Of a stretch of 64,000 nucleotides of DNA, positions 4,829-64,000 are shown in pieces. The first letter of the stretch is position 1. Each line of letters starts with the position of its first letter. Position numbers and translations under genes: made by a program. The notes below the pieces were generated by a model. The model saw only the letters and a program-made list of their open reading frames with translations, searched no databases and was not told the origin of the DNA. Origin of the DNA: Anaeropeptidivorans aminofermentans (GTDB lineage Bacteria > Bacillota > Clostridia > Lachnospirales > UBA5962); assembly GCF_940670685.1 (NCBI RefSeq), contig NZ_OW711693.1:1116001-1180000 (forward strand). Direction: 5' to 3'.

Positions 4829-4913
4829 GTTGGCACTCCTTTCGATAAGAATTAGATTATATATAGCTTAGGTTTTCTTATCTTAAGTAATAATCAATAC
4901 TGCTGTGATAATT

Positions 4914-5030
4914 ACCCTTAACAAGCCTTTGAAAAGCTTGTTAAATATAGGGTTAGTGCTCACTTGAAAAAGATTTGCAAGCCTTTATTTTTTAGCTTAC
5001 GCTTGCATCTTTTTCAAGTTCGCTTAGTAT
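4914..5030. repeat. Family D double-hairpin repeat, copy 1
   Basis: Two adjacent hairpins are present. The first is ACCCTTAACAAGC...GCTTGTTA..AGGGT. The second is CTTGAAAAAGAT..GCAAGC...GCTTGCATCTTTTTCAAG. Both are followed by TTCGCTTAGTATA. A diverged copy with compensating arm changes lies at 17526-17628. The rest of the gap between 4829 and 5217 has no supported gene. Confidence 0.6.
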
Positions 5031-5216
5031 AAATAGTAAAGCCTGGAGGATAATTTGAAAAAGTAATAACAGACAGTATTAGTACATACTATGAAATGTA
5101 GGACACACTTGCTACTAAAAACTATTAAATTAAGCAAGAATTTTCTCGTCAGTAAATAATGTCCGAGGTGGTTTAAATACTTATTTTAAAGCTTGCGGAT
5201 AGGCCTTGATTCAAAT

Positions 5217-17293: not shown

Positions 17294-17525
17294 TATAGTA
17301 AATTTCACAGAAGGATGTAATAAAAATCTATTTTTCATAAACGGCTTAAACATATAAAAGCCCTATGTTTAAGCCATTCATAGCCAACAAAGATTAAAAT
17401 ATTTTTGTTGGCTATAAGAGGGCGTTCGCCTGAAAACACTTTAACAGTTTCCCTGTAAGTGTTTCCAGGTTCACTAAGCATAAAACATACGATTTTTATT
17501 ACTGTTTAATTTGAAATTTACTATA
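17294..17525. repeat. Family A miniature inverted-repeat element, copy 1 (232 bp)
   Basis: It is bounded by perfect 14-bp terminal inverted repeats (TATAGTAAATTTCA / TGAAATTTACTATA), with TA or TATA a possible target duplication. Internally there are three stem-loops: GGCTTAAACAT / ATGTTTAAGCC, ATAGCCAACAAAGAT / ATTTTTGTTGGCTAT, and CCTGAAAACACTT / AAGTGTTTCCAGG. It has no coding capacity. A near-identical copy lies at 20702-20932. It sits between the small coat-like gene and the perR terminator. Confidence 0.85.
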
Positions 17526-17628
17526 GTTAACAAAGACGAATATTTGTTTGTTAACTATGAGGAGGCTCTTACTCGAAAAATTATTTTTAAGCCTACACTT
17601 ATGTAATTTTTCAAGTTCGTTTAATATA
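17526..17628. repeat. Family D double-hairpin repeat, copy 2
   Basis: It directly abuts family A copy 1. Hairpin one is GTTAACAAA...TTTGTTAAC. Hairpin two is CTCGAAAAATTA...TAATTTTTCAAG, followed by TTCGTTTAATATA. The second hairpin corresponds to that at 4963-5018, with the arms altered in a paired way. Confidence 0.55.
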
Positions 17629-17705
17629 GCTTAATTTTAAAAATCGAATAAAGTTTCTGTTGCAAGGCAAATCTGAATAATTAAAAAACTCTTTGCTCTA
17701 ATTAG

Positions 17706-17817
17706 AAAAAAGCTGCTACTTAGGCAATATAACTCAAAAGGTATTGAAAAGAAATTGTCTAGACTCAAATTTCTTTCAAATGCTTTTGGATTAATATTCC
17801 CTAGGCAGCAGCTTTAA
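17706..17817 (-). terminator. Long (about 110-nt) hairpin terminator of perR
   Basis: Outer arms of 22 bases (AAAGCTGCT plus an adjoining imperfect 13 bp) and inner arms of about 20 bases make an almost continuous stem. On the minus strand it ends GCAGCTTTTTTCTAAT, like an intrinsic terminator. It begins about 10 bases past the perR stop. The length is unusual, and it may be a mobile palindrome that took over the terminator role. Confidence 0.7.
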
Positions 17818-17827
17818 GCACATGGTT

Positions 17828-18244
17828 TTATTTATTAAGGCAGTCACTGCAGATACCGTAAAAATACATTTGCTCTCTTTTAATGAGAAAATTATTTTTT
17901 TCGTTTAAAGATTCAATAATAGGCCCCAATTCCTCTACGGATTGAAGATCAACAACAGTATGACATTTTTCACATATAAAATGAGGATGAAATTCGCATG
18001 TTGCATCATAACGGAAGCTGTCTTCGCCGACATTAAGTTCCTGAACGAGGCCCTTTTTCTTAAAGGTGTCAAGGGTTTTATAAACTGTGGCAAGGCTCAT
18101 AGCAGGGTGACTTTCTTCCAAGGATTTATAGATGGTTTCAACACTTGGATGTTCGTGGGTATTAAGAAGCATGTTATAAATGGCAAGTCTTTGGGGAGTG
18201 ACTTTCAGATGCTTCTCCTTCAGCTTTTCAGCAACATTAATCAT
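17828..18244 (-). CDS. perR: Fur-family peroxide-type repressor
   Basis: The 138-residue DNA-binding metalloregulator has a winged helix at residues 15-80 (VTPQRLAIYNML, LATVYKTLDTF) and a C-terminal dimerisation domain. The PerR-type metal site reads SFRYDATCEFHPHFICEKC, with the Asp of RYD, paired His and a later VVDL Asp. Two CxxC pairs (CEKC and CSDC) form the structural zinc site. The RYD Asp in place of the Fur pattern favours PerR. A palindrome overlaps its own promoter, suggesting autoregulation. It is monocistronic. Confidence 0.9.
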   Translation of the reverse strand: MINVAEKLKEKHLKVTPQRLAIYNMLLNTHEHPSVETIYKSLEESHPAMSLATVYKTLDTFKKKGLVQELNVGEDSFRYDATCEFHPHFICEKCHTVVDLQSVEELGPIIESLNEKNNFLIKREQMYFYGICSDCLNK

Positions 18245-18287
18245 ATTAACACTCCTATTCGATAACTCTGGTGAATACAGGATAACT

Positions 18288-18303
18288 ATTATTATATAAT
18301 AAT
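18288..18303. promoter_or_regulatory. Candidate PerR/Fur-type operator
   Basis: The perfect 16-bp palindrome ATTATTATATAATAAT covers the -10 region of the perR promoter. It resembles, but does not exactly match, the AT-rich 7-1-7 PerR box. Confidence 0.45.
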
Positions 18304-18324
18304 ATATTTCTTAGCAAAAGTCAA
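18296..18324 (-). promoter_or_regulatory. Sigma-A type promoter of perR
   Basis: Minus strand: TTGACT, 17-base spacer, TATTAT; leader of about 45 bases to the ATG at 18244. Confidence 0.65.
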
Positions 18325-18529
18325 TAAATACTTTAAATTTAAAAAAATTTGGCTGAATGAATTATACCTATATGTAAAACGATTAATTTTATAAAAATTA
18401 AACTTAACCATAAGGCAATTTTACCCTATAAATAATATGGCTATATAATAATTAAAATTGTATTCGCCGGTTACTTATGATAGCATATATACTGAAAAAA
18501 GTAAAAACTAAAAAAGATGGTGTATATTT

Positions 18530-19021
18530 ATGAATATCGTGCTTCTTGAGCCTGAAATACCCTTTAACACCGGAAATATAGGGCGTACCTGCGTTTCTTC
18601 CAATACAAAGCTTCACCTGATAAAGCCCCTTGGCTTCAGCGTAGACGATAAGCATTTGAAACGTTCCGGCCTTGATTACTGGCAGGACCTTAATGTAAGT
18701 TATTATGAAAATTTTGAAGATTTTCTTGAAAAAAACAATTATCCTAAAATTTATATGGCAACCACAAAAGCAAGGCATATCTATACGGAAGTACAGTATG
18801 AGTATGATTCATACATTATGTTTGGCAAGGAAAGCGCAGGAATCCCGGAGGAAATCCTTGTAAAATATCCCGATACATCCATAAGGATTCCCATGGACGA
18901 AAAATACAGATCCCTTAATCTTTCTACCTCTGTTGCCATCGTTTTATATGAAGCTTTAAGACAGCAGAATTTTAAATCTTTACTTTTTGAAGGCAATTTG
19001 CATAGGCTTAAATGGGATTAA
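18530..19021 (+). CDS. trmL: tRNA (cytidine/uridine(34)-2'-O)-methyltransferase
   Basis: The 163-residue SPOUT-class methyltransferase modifies the wobble nucleotide of leucine tRNAs, using S-adenosylmethionine. Motifs are EPEIPFNTGNIGRTC at the N-terminus, FGKESAGIPEEIL, and the knot region IPMDEKYRSLNLSTSVAIVLYEA. The length is that of the family. The ribosome site is weak (AAGATGG). It is convergent with the spoVB-like gene and shares the terminator region between them. Confidence 0.95.
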   Translation: MNIVLLEPEIPFNTGNIGRTCVSSNTKLHLIKPLGFSVDDKHLKRSGLDYWQDLNVSYYENFEDFLEKNNYPKIYMATTKARHIYTEVQYEYDSYIMFGKESAGIPEEILVKYPDTSIRIPMDEKYRSLNLSTSVAIVLYEALRQQNFKSLLFEGNLHRLKWD

Positions 19022-19027
19022 ATAGAT

Positions 19028-19061
19028 GAAAGCCGCAGGAGATATCGCCTGCGGCTTTTTG
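19028..19061 (+). terminator. Terminator between trmL and the spoVB-like gene
   Basis: GAAAGCCGCAGG / CCTGCGGCTTTTT stem with a T-run on the plus strand. The symmetric stem may also act on the minus strand. Confidence 0.85.
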
Positions 19062-19067
19062 TATAAT

Positions 19068-20594
19068 TTACCTTTTAAAAAGTATTTTCATATCATTTCT
19101 TGATATAGTGCCTATAGAAACTACTGCAATAATATATATGAGGCCTAAAATTAATGTGCCGGCTAGAAGACCCAAAACATCGCCAAGATAGAAGAAAAGA
19201 AGGTCCTTAAAAAGGTTTACCGTAAGGCATGCAGCCGTTATGGCAAGAGAAGGCTTTAAAAACCAATTGCCAAAATCTATGGACATATGGGATACTTTTC
19301 TTATTTTAAATATGCTTAAGGAACATACAACGCATAATGCTACAAAGGACCCCAGTATATAGCCTTTTATTCCTATAATGGGAACGGAGGTCCATACGAA
19401 AAATATGGATATGGCAGAAGACAATAGAGAGTTTTTAAATATAAAAACCTGTTCGCCGAAGCCGTTTAAGATTCCCGAAAAGGTGGTATTCATATAGGTA
19501 AAAGGACACATAATGCCAAGGTAAATGAGTATTTCAGCAATATCTTCATTATATATGATACTGCCCAGGTTTCCCGAATAAAGTATAAAAAAGCCGGCGG
19601 CACATATCCCTATGATATTTGTAAAAAGAAGCACTTTAGAAACTGTAAAATTAATTCTTTTCATATTGTTTACAGCCAATGCCTCGGAAATTGCCGGTAC
19701 CAAAGATATGGCAAGGGACACAAGGATTGCCGAGGGAAACATAATAAGAGGCATTGCCATTCCCGATATTTTTCCGAATTCTTCCATGGCTTGAGAGCCT
19801 GTTAAGCCGGAAAGCTGAAGCCTTTGCGGAAGCATCATATTTTCTATGCTTAAAAGCAAAGAGCCGCTTACCCTATTTAAAGTAAGAGGAAGAGACATGG
19901 AAAAAATAAGGATAAAAGAATCAAAGGTCGTATAGGAAGGTTTTTTATTAAAAGAATTTTTCGCTTTAAAATATTTATAGGAAAAGATAATCATTAAAAA
20001 TGAGAAAAATTCCCCGAGAAATATGCCGATAACGGCGGCGGCGCAGGCAAACTCAAGCCCCATGGGAATAAGCTTATGAGACAGGGCAAAAATCGCAGCC
20101 ATTCTCACGAGCTGTTCAAAAACTTGGCTTACGGCAGGAACGGTGGTTTCCTGCAAACCGTAGAAATATCCTCTGATACAGGAGCCGGCAGCCATAAAAG
20201 GAAAAGAAAGAGAGAGTATCTTCAGGGAAAGAATAAGCCTTTCGTCCTTTACAAAATTTGCTGCTGCAAATTCTGCGTTAAAGAAAAGAAGCACTGATAA
20301 TAAAAGGCCAAGGCCTGAGGTTATTACAAGAGACTGCTTTAAAATACGGCCCATATTTCCATATTCGCCTTTAGCCTGCTCAGCTGAAATAAGCTTAGAC
20401 AAGGTTGTCGTAAAGCCTGAACAGGATATGCTCCATGCCAGAGAGTATATGGGCATAATAAGCTGATAGAGACCCATTCCTTCTGCGCCGATTACATTTG
20501 ACATATATATTCTGTAAACAAACCCCAATATACGGTTGATTATTCCCGACGCCGTCAGTATGGCAGCCGATTTAATGATGCCTTTTTTAGCCAT
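19068..20594 (-). CDS. spoVB: SpoVB-like polysaccharide/lipid flippase (MOP superfamily)
   Basis: The 508-residue membrane protein has about 14 hydrophobic segments and the start KSAAILTASGIINRILGFVYRIYMSNVIGAEG typical of SpoVB/MurJ-related flippases. It would move lipid-linked wall precursors across the membrane; SpoVB acts in spore cortex synthesis. AAAGGGG lies seven bases before the ATG. Other YtgP/SpoVB-like paralogues exist in Firmicutes, so the exact orthology is not certain. Confidence 0.8.
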   Translation of the reverse strand: MAKKGIIKSAAILTASGIINRILGFVYRIYMSNVIGAEGMGLYQLIMPIYSLAWSISCSGFTTTLSKLISAEQAKGEYGNMGRILKQSLVITSGLGLLLSVLLFFNAEFAAANFVKDERLILSLKILSLSFPFMAAGSCIRGYFYGLQETTVPAVSQVFEQLVRMAAIFALSHKLIPMGLEFACAAAVIGIFLGEFFSFLMIIFSYKYFKAKNSFNKKPSYTTFDSFILIFSMSLPLTLNRVSGSLLLSIENMMLPQRLQLSGLTGSQAMEEFGKISGMAMPLIMFPSAILVSLAISLVPAISEALAVNNMKRINFTVSKVLLFTNIIGICAAGFFILYSGNLGSIIYNEDIAEILIYLGIMCPFTYMNTTFSGILNGFGEQVFIFKNSLLSSAISIFFVWTSVPIIGIKGYILGSFVALCVVCSLSIFKIRKVSHMSIDFGNWFLKPSLAITAACLTVNLFKDLLFFYLGDVLGLLAGTLILGLIYIIAVVSIGTISRNDMKILFKR

Positions 20595-20660
20595 AACAAA
20601 ACCCCTTTTGAAAAAAGTCCTATATGAGCTTATTCAAAGGGACAAAGCATTTAGAACAAA

Positions 20661-20690
20661 AAAATACTCCCATATCCATGGGAGTATTTT
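20661..20690 (-). terminator. Terminator of the PLMP-2TM gene
   Basis: AAATACTCCCAT / ATGGGAGTATTT with a following T-run on the minus strand. It lies about 255 bases past the gene's stop, because family A copy 2 occupies the space in between. Confidence 0.8.
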
Positions 20691-20701
20691 AAATATTCAA
20701 T

Positions 20702-20932
20702 TATAGTAAATTTCACTGAAGGATGTAATAAAAATCTATTTTTCATAAACGGATTAAACATATAAAAGCCCTATGTTTAATCTATTCATAGCCAACAAAG
20801 ATTAAAATATCTTTGTTGGCTATGAGGGGCGTTCGCCTGAAAACACTTTAACAGTTTCCCTATAAGTGTTTCCAGGTTCACTAAGTATAAAATATACGAT
20901 TTTTATTACTGTTTCATTTGAAATTTACTATA
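20702..20932. repeat. Family A miniature inverted-repeat element, copy 2 (231 bp)
   Basis: It has the same perfect 14-bp ends and three stem-loops as the copy at 17294-17525. The first hairpin reads GGATTAAACAT / ATGTTTAATCT, a paired C-G to A-T replacement relative to copy 1. The second hairpin is perfect here (ATAGCCAACAAAGAT / ATCTTTGTTGGCTAT). It is inserted 13 bases past the stop of the minus-strand gene at 20945. Confidence 0.87.
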
Positions 20933-20944
20933 GAACGGCGAATG

Positions 20945-21436
20945 CTACATTTTGCTTCTTCTCATATATTCCTTCTGCTTTTGAAATTCTTTTTCAACAG
21001 CACTGGGGTCACATTTATATTTATAGTCGAGAAAGTGGCTTATGAGGCCGATTCCCCAGGGAAGAGCTACAAATAAAAACCACATTTCACCGTCTGCAAA
21101 GGACATTATCATCAGCATAAGGTTTATGATAACATAAGCTACCAGGTGATTGATAAAAGCTCTTCGTGCTCTTACTATTTTTTGTGCTCTTTTATAAAGA
21201 GCTTCATCGGATAAAGTTGATGTATCTTCATAGGGCTCTGCAACCTCATAAGCCCTAGGGCCGTTCGTATTATTATCTTCCATAGGATTACGCTCCTTTT
21301 CCTCGTCAAATATGCAAATCGTGTTATAATCACTCCAAGCCGCCCTGCCTGATTTCACAAGCTGGCGGGCTCTTTTCAAATAAGTAGGGGCTAGGCTGTT
21401 GCCCAGCTTATCTACTACAAGGATCTCTTTATTCAT
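20945..21436 (-). CDS. PLMP/RRXRR-motif protein with C-terminal 2TM domain
   Basis: The 163-residue product has an unusual architecture. Residues 5-32 read ILVVDKLGNSLAPTYLKRAR and QLVKSGRAAW, matching the RRXRR (PLMP) motif known from the N-terminus of IscB/IsrB-type proteins and other HNH-associated proteins. A polar linker follows (residues 45-85). The C-terminal half contains a 2TM domain: RRAFINHLVAYVIINLMLMI, a second helix MWFLFVALPWGIGLISHFL, and a basic tail. No nuclease domain is present. The ATG follows an AGGAGGG site. Function is unknown; the membrane domain suggests a small anchored protein. Confidence 0.82.
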   Translation of the reverse strand: MNKEILVVDKLGNSLAPTYLKRARQLVKSGRAAWSDYNTICIFDEEKERNPMEDNNTNGPRAYEVAEPYEDTSTLSDEALYKRAQKIVRARRAFINHLVAYVIINLMLMIMSFADGEMWFLFVALPWGIGLISHFLDYKYKCDPSAVEKEFQKQKEYMRRSKM

Positions 21437-26423: not shown

Positions 26424-26804
26424 TATAGTAGATTTAAAGTGAAACAGTAACAAAGCCGTATATTACTTGAATTCATATGAAACAGCAGCATTGTCAATTT
26501 GCTTTTTTCTTATTTTATGTTCCCTAAAGCCAAATGCTTATAGAGGTATAAAAGCAAACTGACTATACAAGGGTTCCAAAATGCGTTTTAGATCAAATAT
26601 GATAAATCGCCTTTGTGAAACTGCCTTTATTTGATTTTATATATGAAAGCCCTGTGTCTGTTGCGGCATAAAGGCAATTTCACTATGTTTCCTGCGGAAA
26701 TCCGTGTTTTTATACTAAGTGAACGTTTTTATCGTTATCAACTTTTTTGTTTGGTAACGCTCAATCCGCAGTGAATCGGTTTTTGTTACTATATTGAAAT
26801 AGTA
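26424..26804. repeat. Composite family B repeat with two nested palindromes
   Basis: The outer element starts TATAGTAGATTTAAAGTGAAAC and continues through TTTCCTGCGGAAATCCGTG and GTGAATCGGTTTTTGTTACT, matching the uninterrupted element at 51023-51158. Nested within are a family B2 palindrome (26489-26567, TTGTCAATTTGCTTTT ... AAAAGCAAACTGACTATA) and a second palindrome (26615-26685, GTGAAACTGCCTTTAT ... ATAAAGGCAATTTCAC). It fills the whole space between queA and rarA. Confidence 0.75.
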
Positions 26805-28157: not shown

Positions 28158-28896
28158 TTATAAGCTTGTTTTAGCCTATGACGGAAGCCGGTATAACGGC
28201 TTTCAGGCCCAGAAGAATTCAGAGAACACCATTCAGCAGGCAATAGAATTAAGGCTTAATGAGATTTTTTCAAAGGATATAAAAATCGTTGCTTCTGGAA
28301 GAACAGATGCAGGGGTTCATGCGGAAAATCAGGTGATTAATTTTAAAATAGACGAAGAAATTGACTTAAGCAGTTTTCTTGCACTGATAAATAAAAAGCT
28401 TCCCGGGAGTATCAGCGTAAAGGAAATTAATAAAATGCCGGAGGATTTTCACGCAAGATTTGACGCTAAAAGTAAAATCTATGAATACCGCATCTTAAAC
28501 GCTCCATATCCCAATCCCTTTTTAAGAAAGTATGCTTACTTTTATCCCGAAACCCTTGATATAAAGGAAATGGAAAAGGCCTCAAGGCTTTTTACAGGTA
28601 TTCATGATTTTAGGGCATTTTCTTCCGGCTCCGGCAAAAAATCCACCACAAGAGAAATCTATTCCATAAAAATAGAAAGAGACAAAGATTTAGTTAAAAT
28701 CATATATCACGGAAACGGTTTTCTATATAATATGGTAAGAATCATTACGGGAACCCTTATTCAAATAAGCGAGAAAACCCTTTCGGAAGAGGATATTTTA
28801 AGGGCTTTTCAAAGAAATGAAAGAGGGATTGCAGGATTTACCGCTCCTCCTCAGGGATTATTTCTTCAAGAAGTGATTTATAGTAAAATGATTTAA
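28150..28896 (+). CDS. truA: tRNA pseudouridine(38-40) synthase
   Basis: The 248-residue enzyme isomerises uridines 38-40 in the tRNA anticodon arm. It has the catalytic motif SGRTDAGVHA near residue 51-60 and RNA-contact stretches NGFLYNMVRIITGT and APPQGLFLQEV. TruA proteins commonly end shortly after this GLxLxxVxY motif. Here the tail YSKMI and stop codon lie within the left end of the family B repeat (28879 onward), whose first 20 or so bases are almost identical to those at 63789. The C-terminal residues therefore seem to be supplied by the repeat. Start overlaps rarA, so translation is coupled. Confidence 0.95.
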   Translation: MNNYKLVLAYDGSRYNGFQAQKNSENTIQQAIELRLNEIFSKDIKIVASGRTDAGVHAENQVINFKIDEEIDLSSFLALINKKLPGSISVKEINKMPEDFHARFDAKSKIYEYRILNAPYPNPFLRKYAYFYPETLDIKEMEKASRLFTGIHDFRAFSSGSGKKSTTREIYSIKIERDKDLVKIIYHGNGFLYNMVRIITGTLIQISEKTLSEEDILRAFQRNERGIAGFTAPPQGLFLQEVIYSKMI

Positions 28897-29171
28897 TTAC
28901 AGTAACAACACCGTATATTCCTTGAATTCACATGAAATAGCGGCGCTATCTTAAGGATTTTCCACGAAAAAGTCATGAGTTTATGGCAAAATACACGAAA
29001 GTTTTGATTTTACAAATAAGCCCTAAGCGAATTTGGAAAAGGATACAGGCATAAGGCCGTAAATCTTTTTAAGTGGGGGTTTTCCTATTATTATCAAGCT
29101 TGTTTTTTGTTTGGTAAAGATGAATCCCTAGTGAATCGCTTTTTGTTACTACCTTGAAACAGTTTTACTTT
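28879..29171. repeat. Family B repeat overlapping the 3' end of truA
   Basis: It begins TATAGTAAAATGATTTAAT, nearly identical to the element at 63789, and continues with ACAGTAACAACACCGTATATTCC. It carries a family C-like segment in reverse (about 28945-29065) and ends with the TTATCAAGCTTG / TTTTTTGTTTGGTAA module and TTTTTGTTACTACC. It spans nearly all of the truA-amaP space. Confidence 0.7.
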
Positions 29172-33881: not shown

Positions 33882-34030
33882 CCGTACACAGCTGATTTCA
33901 AATAAAAAGCAGCATTATCAAATGGAACAGGAAAAAGTTATGACTGGATTAAAATACCCTCCCTTTAGGGCCTTTTGAGCTTACGGTATTTTGCGGAGCA
34001 AATTTATGCCTTCTAAAGCCAAATACCTGC

Positions 34031-34180
34031 AGCGGAATAAAAGCAAATTAACTATATTACATAGCATTAATAAAGCCGTAAGTTAAAGCATACAGCCCTT
34101 TAGCCTGCGGCTTTGTGTTTTATGTGCTTACAGCATTTTGAAGGAGTTCTGTCACATAGTCAATTTGCTTTTATTCTGCT
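34031..34180. repeat. Inside-out pair of family B2 arms
   Basis: AGCGGAATAAAAGCAAATTA (34031-34050) and its near reverse complement AATTTGCTTTTATTCTGCT (34161-34180) flank about 110 bases. Elsewhere the two arms face the opposite way round, so this looks like two adjacent elements that have lost their outer halves, or a rearrangement. Confidence 0.5.
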
Positions 34181-41390: not shown

Positions 41391-43634
<2,244 letters not shown>

Positions 43635-49866: not shown

Positions 49867-49945
49867 ATATAGCAAATTTGCTTTTCTACCGCAGTAAGGA
49901 ACGGGCTCTAAGAAGGCATAAAATCAAGGAAAAGCAAATTTACAG
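49867..49945. repeat. Family B2 palindrome
   Basis: ATAGCAAATTTGCTTTTC ... GAAAAGCAAATTTAC, about 78 bp. The remaining bases up to 50168 contain no gene. Confidence 0.65.
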
Positions 49946-50168
49946 CGCTGCTGTTTTACTTTTATTCGAGTATAAGCTTAAGCCCATAAATAGTTTTAGG
50001 CTGCGCTTCCTTATGTTAATAAAAAGGCTTTTATCTTTATTAATCATATAAAAGAAGCATAAATTTTGGCATTCTTAAAGTTTATCCATTATATCCGAAT
50101 AAATAAGTATATTTAAGCAAGAATAAAAATAGAATATAGATTGGTTTATTGAATCTTAAGGAGCAGTT

Positions 50169-51022: not shown

Positions 51023-51158
51023 ATAGTAAATTTAAAGTGAAACAGGAACAAAACCGTATATTCACTTAGGCTTAAAAATATATCGTTTCCTGCGGAAATC
51101 CGTGTTTTGGGTCTGTAGTGAATAAGTTTTTGTTGCTTCTTTAGAAGAAATTTACTAT
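51023..51158. repeat. Uninterrupted family B element (136 bp)
   Basis: ATAGTAAATTTAAAGTGAAAC ... TTTCCTGCGGAAATCCGTG ... TTTTTGTTGCTTC ... AAATTTACTAT. It has inverted 11-bp ends and serves as the reference form for the composite copies. Confidence 0.75.
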
Positions 51159-51180
51159 TAAATCAGAATGAAGCAATGCT

Positions 51181-56461: not shown

Positions 56462-56514
56462 TATGCTTGCATAATACAGAATAAAATACTATAATAGCTA
56501 CCATAATATAGTTA

Positions 56515-56665
56515 TATATAAATAAAAGTAAAACAGTAGCATCGTAAATTTGCTTTTCCTTGATTTGATGTCTTTTTAGAGCCTATTTTTACAGCGGAAG
56601 AAAAGCAAATTTACTATACGGCTATAGTAAAATAGATTTTTGTTACTACCTTAAGCTATTTTACT
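56515..56665. repeat. Family B fragment with nested B2 palindrome
   Basis: A B2 unit at 56541-56618 (TCGTAAATTTGCTTTTC ... GAAAAGCAAATTTACTATA) follows an AGTAAAACAGTAGC remnant. It is followed by a mini-element CTATAGTAAAATAG ... TTTTTGTTACTACC ... CTATTTTACTATA. Confidence 0.65.
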
Positions 56666-56724
56666 ATATATCGTCTAGTATGAATATTTATGTTTTCTAA
56701 TATGAAAATGCGTTTGAGGAAAAA

Positions 56725-56917
56725 TAAGATTGTCCTAGTTTTCAGAGAGCAGGCGTTTGGTGTGAGCCCGCAGCAAAAGCAATCCGTCCAATTTCCAAGC
56801 ATACGGCAAACCCGTAAGGCAGGTACCTTTATCTACCGTTAGAGTGGCTGTTTTTTTACAGCAATTTGGGTGGCAACACGGAGCTTTTCGTCCCATGGGG
56901 ATAGAGCTCCTTTTTTA
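56725..56917 (+). promoter_or_regulatory. T-box leader controlling serS
   Basis: Stem I is closed by GATTG (56728) and CAATC (56780-56784) and contains the AGAGAG motif. The T-box core TTTGGGTGGCAACACGG is at 56866-56882. The TGGC bulge would pair with the GCCA end of uncharged serine tRNA (discriminator G), which fits the downstream gene. A candidate specifier is AGC (56772-56774); TCC (56787-56789) is the alternative. The terminator hairpin GGAGCT...AGCTCC with six T (56880-56917) competes with antitermination. Uncharged tRNA-Ser should raise serS expression. Confidence 0.88.
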
Positions 56918-56934
56918 TTACAAATTATTAAGGT

Positions 56935-57087
56935 ATTGCGGATTTACTTTTATACTCTGAGAACATATAGTTAATTTGCTTTTATACCAAAGTGAATATT
57001 TGGATTAAGGTAATTTAGAATAAGAGAAAAGCAAATTGGCAATGGTACCATTTCATGTTTAATCAAGCATAAAAGCAAATCCGCAGT
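56935..57087. repeat. Two nested B2 palindromes between the T-box and serS
   Basis: Outer arms ATTGCGGATTTACTTTTAT (56935) and ATAAAAGCAAATCCGCAGT (57069) enclose a second unit: TAGTTAATTTGCTTTTAT (56968) and GAAAAGCAAATTGGCA (57025). The pair lies in the serS 5' untranslated region, downstream of the T-box terminator. Confidence 0.75.
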
Positions 57088-63788: not shown

Positions 63789-64000
63789 TATAGTAAAATA
63801 ATTTAATTACAGGAACAAAACCTTATCTTCACGCAGATTCAACAATGCGTTTTAGAAAAATACAATAATTCATATTTTGTGAAACTGCCTTTATTTGATT
63901 TTATATATTGAAAGCTTCCTTATCTATTACGGTATAAAGGCAATTTCATCATATTTTCAAATAAAATCCGTGCCTTTGGGTCTATAGTGAATCAGTTTTT
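63789..64000. repeat. Composite family B repeat (truncated by window edge)
   Basis: TATAGTAAAATAATTTAAT, ACAGGAACAAAACC, then AATGCGTTTTAGA. A nested palindrome (63879-63950, GTGAAACTGCCTTTAT ... ATAAAGGCAATTTCAT) follows, then AAATCCGTG and TAGTGAATCAGTTTTT. It has the same plan as 26424-26804 but without the B2 insertion. Confidence 0.7.

Follow-up and report, generated by a model that had tools for sequence, protein, structure and literature searches.

RUP and other bacterial MITEs carry terminal inverted repeats (TIRs), reach high copy numbers, are highly base-paired, and are likely mobilized in trans (PMC3049150). The BOX element of Streptococcus pneumoniae (boxA-B-C) has variable internal modules, lone modules elsewhere, and a strong fold (PMC3049150). 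In REPINs, changes on one hairpin arm that compensate for changes on the other are common, and a single-stranded DNA hairpin intermediate has been proposed (PMC3116915). Structured, modular MITEs are thus already known. Insertion at TA is typical of RUP and IS630, and PATE-type derivatives of IS200/IS605 elements carry subterminal hairpins and are inserted and excised precisely, without target duplication.

Here, we analyzed a 64,000-nucleotide stretch of the Anaeropeptidivorans aminofermentans genome (the window; contig NZ_OW711693.1, positions 1,116,001 to 1,180,000) and a family of repeats represented in it by two copies. Like RUP and bacterial TIR MITEs such as Nezha, these repeats are about 100 to 230 bp long, AT-rich, and noncoding, with TIRs and a target duplication; unlike RUP, they reside in a genome without a match to the IS630-type DDE_3 domain and contain a two-hairpin unit that is independently dispersed. 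As far as its description goes, BOX is similar in being modular and strongly folded and in having lone modules; in the present family, by contrast, copies have or lack one module at a single exact junction, and this module on its own reaches another bacterial family. With REP/REPIN sequences and their RAYT (Y1) proteins, the family shares intergenic hairpins and compensatory arm changes, but it has TIRs and a TA duplication in place of an inverted REP-type doublet, and no RAYT gene was identified. It also differs from PATE-type derivatives of IS200/IS605, in that the end anatomy of the two-hairpin unit is distinct and the Y1 elements in this genome do not match it. What is new is the modular two-hairpin unit, together with a test that compares pairing in source copies with pairing in resident ones.

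Two composite repeats and their genome-wide family

The initial annotation had described two noncoding repeats, each with three hairpins and with inverted ends that match perfectly over 14 bp. Alignment bears out both repeats, their ends, and the hairpins (Table 1), and neither copy contains an open reading frame (ORF) of at least 80 amino acids. The copies are approximately 95% identical in the alignment, and strong folds are predicted for both strands (−83.2 and −88.1 kcal/mol; z of about −12 relative to shuffled sequences). In hairpin 1, a C-to-A change on one arm is matched by G-to-T on the other, as originally reported, except that the 3′ arm of copy 2 ends in a G·T wobble (ATCT). Hairpin 1 belongs to the outer MITE and is retained in shorter copies (minis, described below). 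The TA duplication assigned to the ends of copy 1 is inferred from an empty site corresponding to the contig L082.

Table 1. Positions of the composite MITEs, their parts, and solo units in the window, with the subfamily ends
Feature	Position	Strand	Sequence or detail
Composite MITE copy 1 (subfamily A)	17294..17525	+	232 bp
TA target duplication at both ends, copy 1	17294-17295, 17524-17525		within 17294..17525
Left terminal inverted repeat, copy 1	17294..17307	+	TATAGTAAATTTCA
Right terminal inverted repeat, copy 1	17512..17525	+	TGAAATTTACTATA
Hairpin 1, copy 1	17343..17375	+	arms GGCTTAAACAT/ATGTTTAAGCC
Two-hairpin unit, copy 1	17380..17481	+	hairpin 2, 17380-17415; hairpin 3, ~17424-17474
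Solo two-hairpin unit adjoining copy 1	17523..17629	+	54 bits
Composite MITE copy 2 (subfamily A)	20702..20932	+	231 bp
Hairpin 1, copy 2	20751..20783	+	GGATTAAACAT/ATGTTTAATCT, compensated pair
Two-hairpin unit, copy 2	20788..20888	+
Second solo unit	4911..5032	+	50.6 bits; divergent sequence, same architecture, tail AAGTTCGCTTAGTATAA
Subfamily end sequences			A, TATAGTAAATTTCA; B, TATAGTAAAATAGCTT; C, TAAAGYAAAACAAGATT

Both copies belong to a MITE superfamily present in the complete genome of this organism (3,757,330 bp; 3.76 Mb). A BLAST search of the genome with copy 2, in which 40 candidates were scored, returned 21 or more relatives of full or nearly full length and a further subfamily at about 77 to 80% identity. 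The further copies sought after the initial annotation are plentiful: R1, a covariance model built on the core, found at least about 80 matches at an E value of <1e-7, a lower bound because 150 candidates were scored. Core matches of about 40 bits or less were excluded from the family because some of them overlap other hairpins. Subfamilies A, B, and C have different ends and retain end-to-end pairing; ends and hairpins covary.

The family is intergenic, with none of 93 copies lying on a predicted gene. Among the 68 copies classed as A, B, or BC, 13 occupy convergent and 5 divergent sites, and there is no orientation bias relative to the flanking genes (++, 21; −−, 19 for composites). A search for relatives in 39 genomes of the same family and order returned short, unrelated hairpins, and the family had no match among plasmids, phages, and viral contigs or, at or above the gathering score, in Rfam.

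Many other repeats in the window have ends related to ATAGTMAAWTT and different interiors (26425-26803, 28880-29163, 51023-51160, 56512-57067, 63809-63977, 2646-2785, 769-837, 34013-34180, and 49868-49973). Several of them are nested in one another, and the 107-bp repeat at 49867-49973 has approximately 38 relatives in the genome. On the minus strand, an ORF at 41391-43628 carries a repeat with a 9-nucleotide (nt) period across about 2 kb, and 20945-21436 encodes a 2TM-domain protein with a weak match, over 38 residues at the N terminus, to RRXRR (PF14239, below the cutoff), a motif found at the start of IscB/HNH proteins. Rfam has a single match in the window, a T-box leader on the plus strand (RF00230, 97.7 bits; 56704-56898).

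A two-hairpin unit within and outside the MITEs

Hairpins 2 and 3 together make up a distinct unit, about 102 bp long, which is also found on its own. Some 27 to 30 copies (at least 27), spread over several subfamilies, are minis of about 130 bp that lack both hairpins, and in several subfamilies the junction falls exactly between CCATTC and AAAATATACG (ATTC/AAAA). A tree built from the outer part of the element mixes 50 composites with 27 minis and implies 18 changes between the two states, compared with a mean of 22.6 after shuffling; the mixture may stem from gene conversion among copies. In a related MITE family whose interior differs, the unit likewise follows the same ATTC.

A model of the unit (R2) gave 114 matches in the same genome. 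These include solo units that are divergent in sequence and the same in architecture. In the window, copy 1 sits in the leading TA of a solo unit (17523 onwards). Neither the separate unit nor this nesting appears in the initial annotation. Solos share no target word, and some are located just upstream of genes. A genome from another family of the same order contains two full units with the same tail (CAAGTTCGCTYAGTATAAAT), and the unpaired tail CAAGTTCGCTTAGTATAA is conserved across the two bacterial families.

A 14-nt loss from the 5′ arm of hairpin 3 (between CCT and AGCTTCACTG) recurs in L090, L095, L097, L100, and L106 (~1501-1630) and is common to many B and C copies that are otherwise intact. 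Hairpin-2-like cores (ATAGCCAACAAA...TTTGTTGGCTAT) repeat alone in L031 (968-1003), L033, L034, and L036 (~1501-1536) of another bacterial family (G030); the flanks of these cores differ yet are complementary, as if the cores had been set inside existing hairpins.

The precise absence of the unit from many copies could be explained if it were an IS200/IS605-like (HUH, Y1) derivative that inserted into the MITE and was then precisely excised. This explanation is consistent with a hairpin at each end of the unit, with a junction that has neither TIR nor duplication, and with the 26 matches to Y1 transposase (PF01797) in the genome. However, the Y1 elements that we inspected, all IS200-type copies or remnants, have ends unlike hairpin 2 or 3, the solos have no target word in common, and hairpin 2 starts at the very end of the unit, with no room for a guide sequence. 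We consider such an origin unlikely, and the inspected IS200-type elements, whose ends differ, were rejected as the source of the two hairpins. It is conceivable, though doubtful, that the two-hairpin unit represents a kind of mobile DNA module not described before. Such a module would be recognized in folded form, through its conserved TC/TC internal loop, the tandem G·A on the other strand, and the conserved tail; it would enter and leave MITEs precisely at ATTC/AAAA without duplication, and it would spread by itself and also carried within TA-inserting MITEs.

The genome contains more than 20 IS200-type elements (e.g., L143 to L162, L226, and L227), which fall into several near-identical groups, and several of those examined lie directly after terminator-like T runs.

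Insertion at TA and the search for a mobilizer

A pattern search with hairpin 2 led to a single contig, L082, from the MAG UBA11329. Its flanks, beside an argininosuccinate synthase-like gene, are 98 to 99.8% identical to the present genome, and L082 was therefore taken to be from the same species. L082 carries a B-type copy where the present genome is empty and has a single TA; the family therefore inserts at TA and is polymorphic. This is the one clean empty site. A search of the same-species MAG with concatenated flanks provided few usable sites because that assembly collapses repeats to NN, and the site of another copy, L050, is also filled there. Two loci in which a mini lies within a two-hairpin unit (L085 and L086) are compatible with TA duplication. 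The many copies, TIRs, TA duplication, same-species empty site, and lack of coding capacity agree with the MITE-like character that the initial annotation had assigned.

Mobility in trans, as was also proposed there, is plausible, with no matching transposase among the two families searched genome-wide (PF13358 and PF01797). The TA target fits a MITE derived from IS630/Tc1-mariner elements, but the corresponding DDE_3 transposase (PF13358) is absent from the genome, and the inspected Y1 elements have ends that differ from those of the family. Of the ORFs lying between distant TIR pairs, two located beyond the window were searched against Pfam; both are host genes (SBP_bac_3 and YunB), and neither is a transposase.

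Base pairing in spreading and resident copies

We examined covariation in alignments fitted to the structure, which favors structure, with tests that rest on FastTree, parsimony, and homemade E values. Within subfamily A (18 copies), covariation is nearly undetectable: a structure-only test identified only the C-A/G-T pair of hairpin 1 (E of ~0.03), and an all-pairs test identified no significant pair. L050 carries a one-sided intermediate of this change (GGATT/AAGCC) and groups on the tree as sister to L001 (copy 2) and L008, both of which have the compensated pair; the change therefore represents one stepwise compensatory event, not many. Across diverse copies, pairing is retained at a level far exceeding the phylogenetic null. 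Of 46 pairs in 63 core copies, 5 pass, mostly through the A/B split, and the Watson-Crick fraction is 0.876, compared with 0.57 ± 0.03 under the tree null. In 48 diverse units, changes on both sides are seen at 27 of 34 pairs, and 10 of the 34 reach an E value of ≤0.05; the covariation score is 0.370, versus 0.161 for shuffled and at most 0.087 for slid partners.

Recent and older branches were then compared. On internal branches of the core tree, 54 pair breaks were observed versus 105 expected, and 20 same-branch compensations versus 3.0 expected; on short terminal branches, breaks occurred as often as at random (88 versus 89), and compensations numbered 1 versus 0.7. The diverse units agree, with 56 breaks versus 119 on internal branches, 43 versus 48 on short terminal branches, and 1 same-branch compensation versus 0.3 on the latter; restoring changes on short unit branches show a weak excess (10 versus 3.3). 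Simpler counts of recent versus older branches gave odds ratios of 4.0 and 2.5. The proposal that pairing is selected is thus supported across the wider family in lineages still spreading, but not for recently landed copies, which lose pairs at the neutral rate.

A mutational process, and not selection, might also keep the pairing: template switching could correct quasipalindromes, or copies could undergo gene conversion with one another. Templated correction is known to act on perfect palindromes, gene conversion would give the intermingling of minis and composites on the outer tree, and the slight surplus of restoring changes noted above for the short unit branches leaves some room for such a process. 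A process that acts on resident copies should, however, appear on recent tips, and the short terminal branches have no excess of compensations in either the core or the unit. Because of this, and given the one-sided intermediate L050, we find a purely mutational origin rather improbable.

Among new mismatches, G·U and A·C are equally frequent (147 versus 144; P = 0.9), whereas four tRNAs in the same loci, a very small sample, gave 7 to 0. Since selection on a single RNA strand should tolerate G·U, this equality favors DNA. The opposing view is that the hairpins function at the RNA level, serving as small RNAs or as cis-regulatory or stability elements, and that the host selects their pairing. 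The very stable predicted RNA folds, the tail conserved in two bacterial families, and the position of some solos just upstream of genes are in keeping with this view, as is the proposal that BOX and RUP affect cotranscribed genes (PMC3049150). The mismatch counts argue against it, as do the neutral rate at which recent tips break pairs and the lack of both orientation bias and an Rfam match. A role in RNA therefore seems unlikely, and of the two substrates named in the initial annotation, RNA or single-stranded DNA, it is DNA that is favored.

Together, the branch and mismatch comparisons show that resident copies are free of pairing selection and propagating lineages are under it, with no strand signature. 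That pairing is kept in spreading lineages and decays after landing suggests that folded DNA matters for moving and not for the host, and it makes pairing of DNA during transposition a better explanation than an RNA function in the host. The interpretation that we prefer, with a probability of roughly 0.6, is that these repeats are nonautonomous, TA-inserting MITEs with an internal two-hairpin unit, that their hairpins form in DNA for mobilization in trans, and that residents decay. The outer ends (TIR, inner stem, and hairpin 1) would carry the unit made up of hairpins 2 and 3, which also exists solo. Hairpins would have to form in DNA, as a single-stranded hairpin or a cruciform, for a putative trans-acting transposase to mobilize a copy, such that only foldable copies would become sources; resident copies would do nothing for the host and would then decay. 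A precise DNA process probably adds or removes the unit itself.

Covariation is usually taken as proof of a functional RNA; here, it can mark DNA folding that is needed for spread. Comparing internal with recent terminal branches, and G·U with A·C mismatches, separates the two cases and is applicable to other structured repeats.
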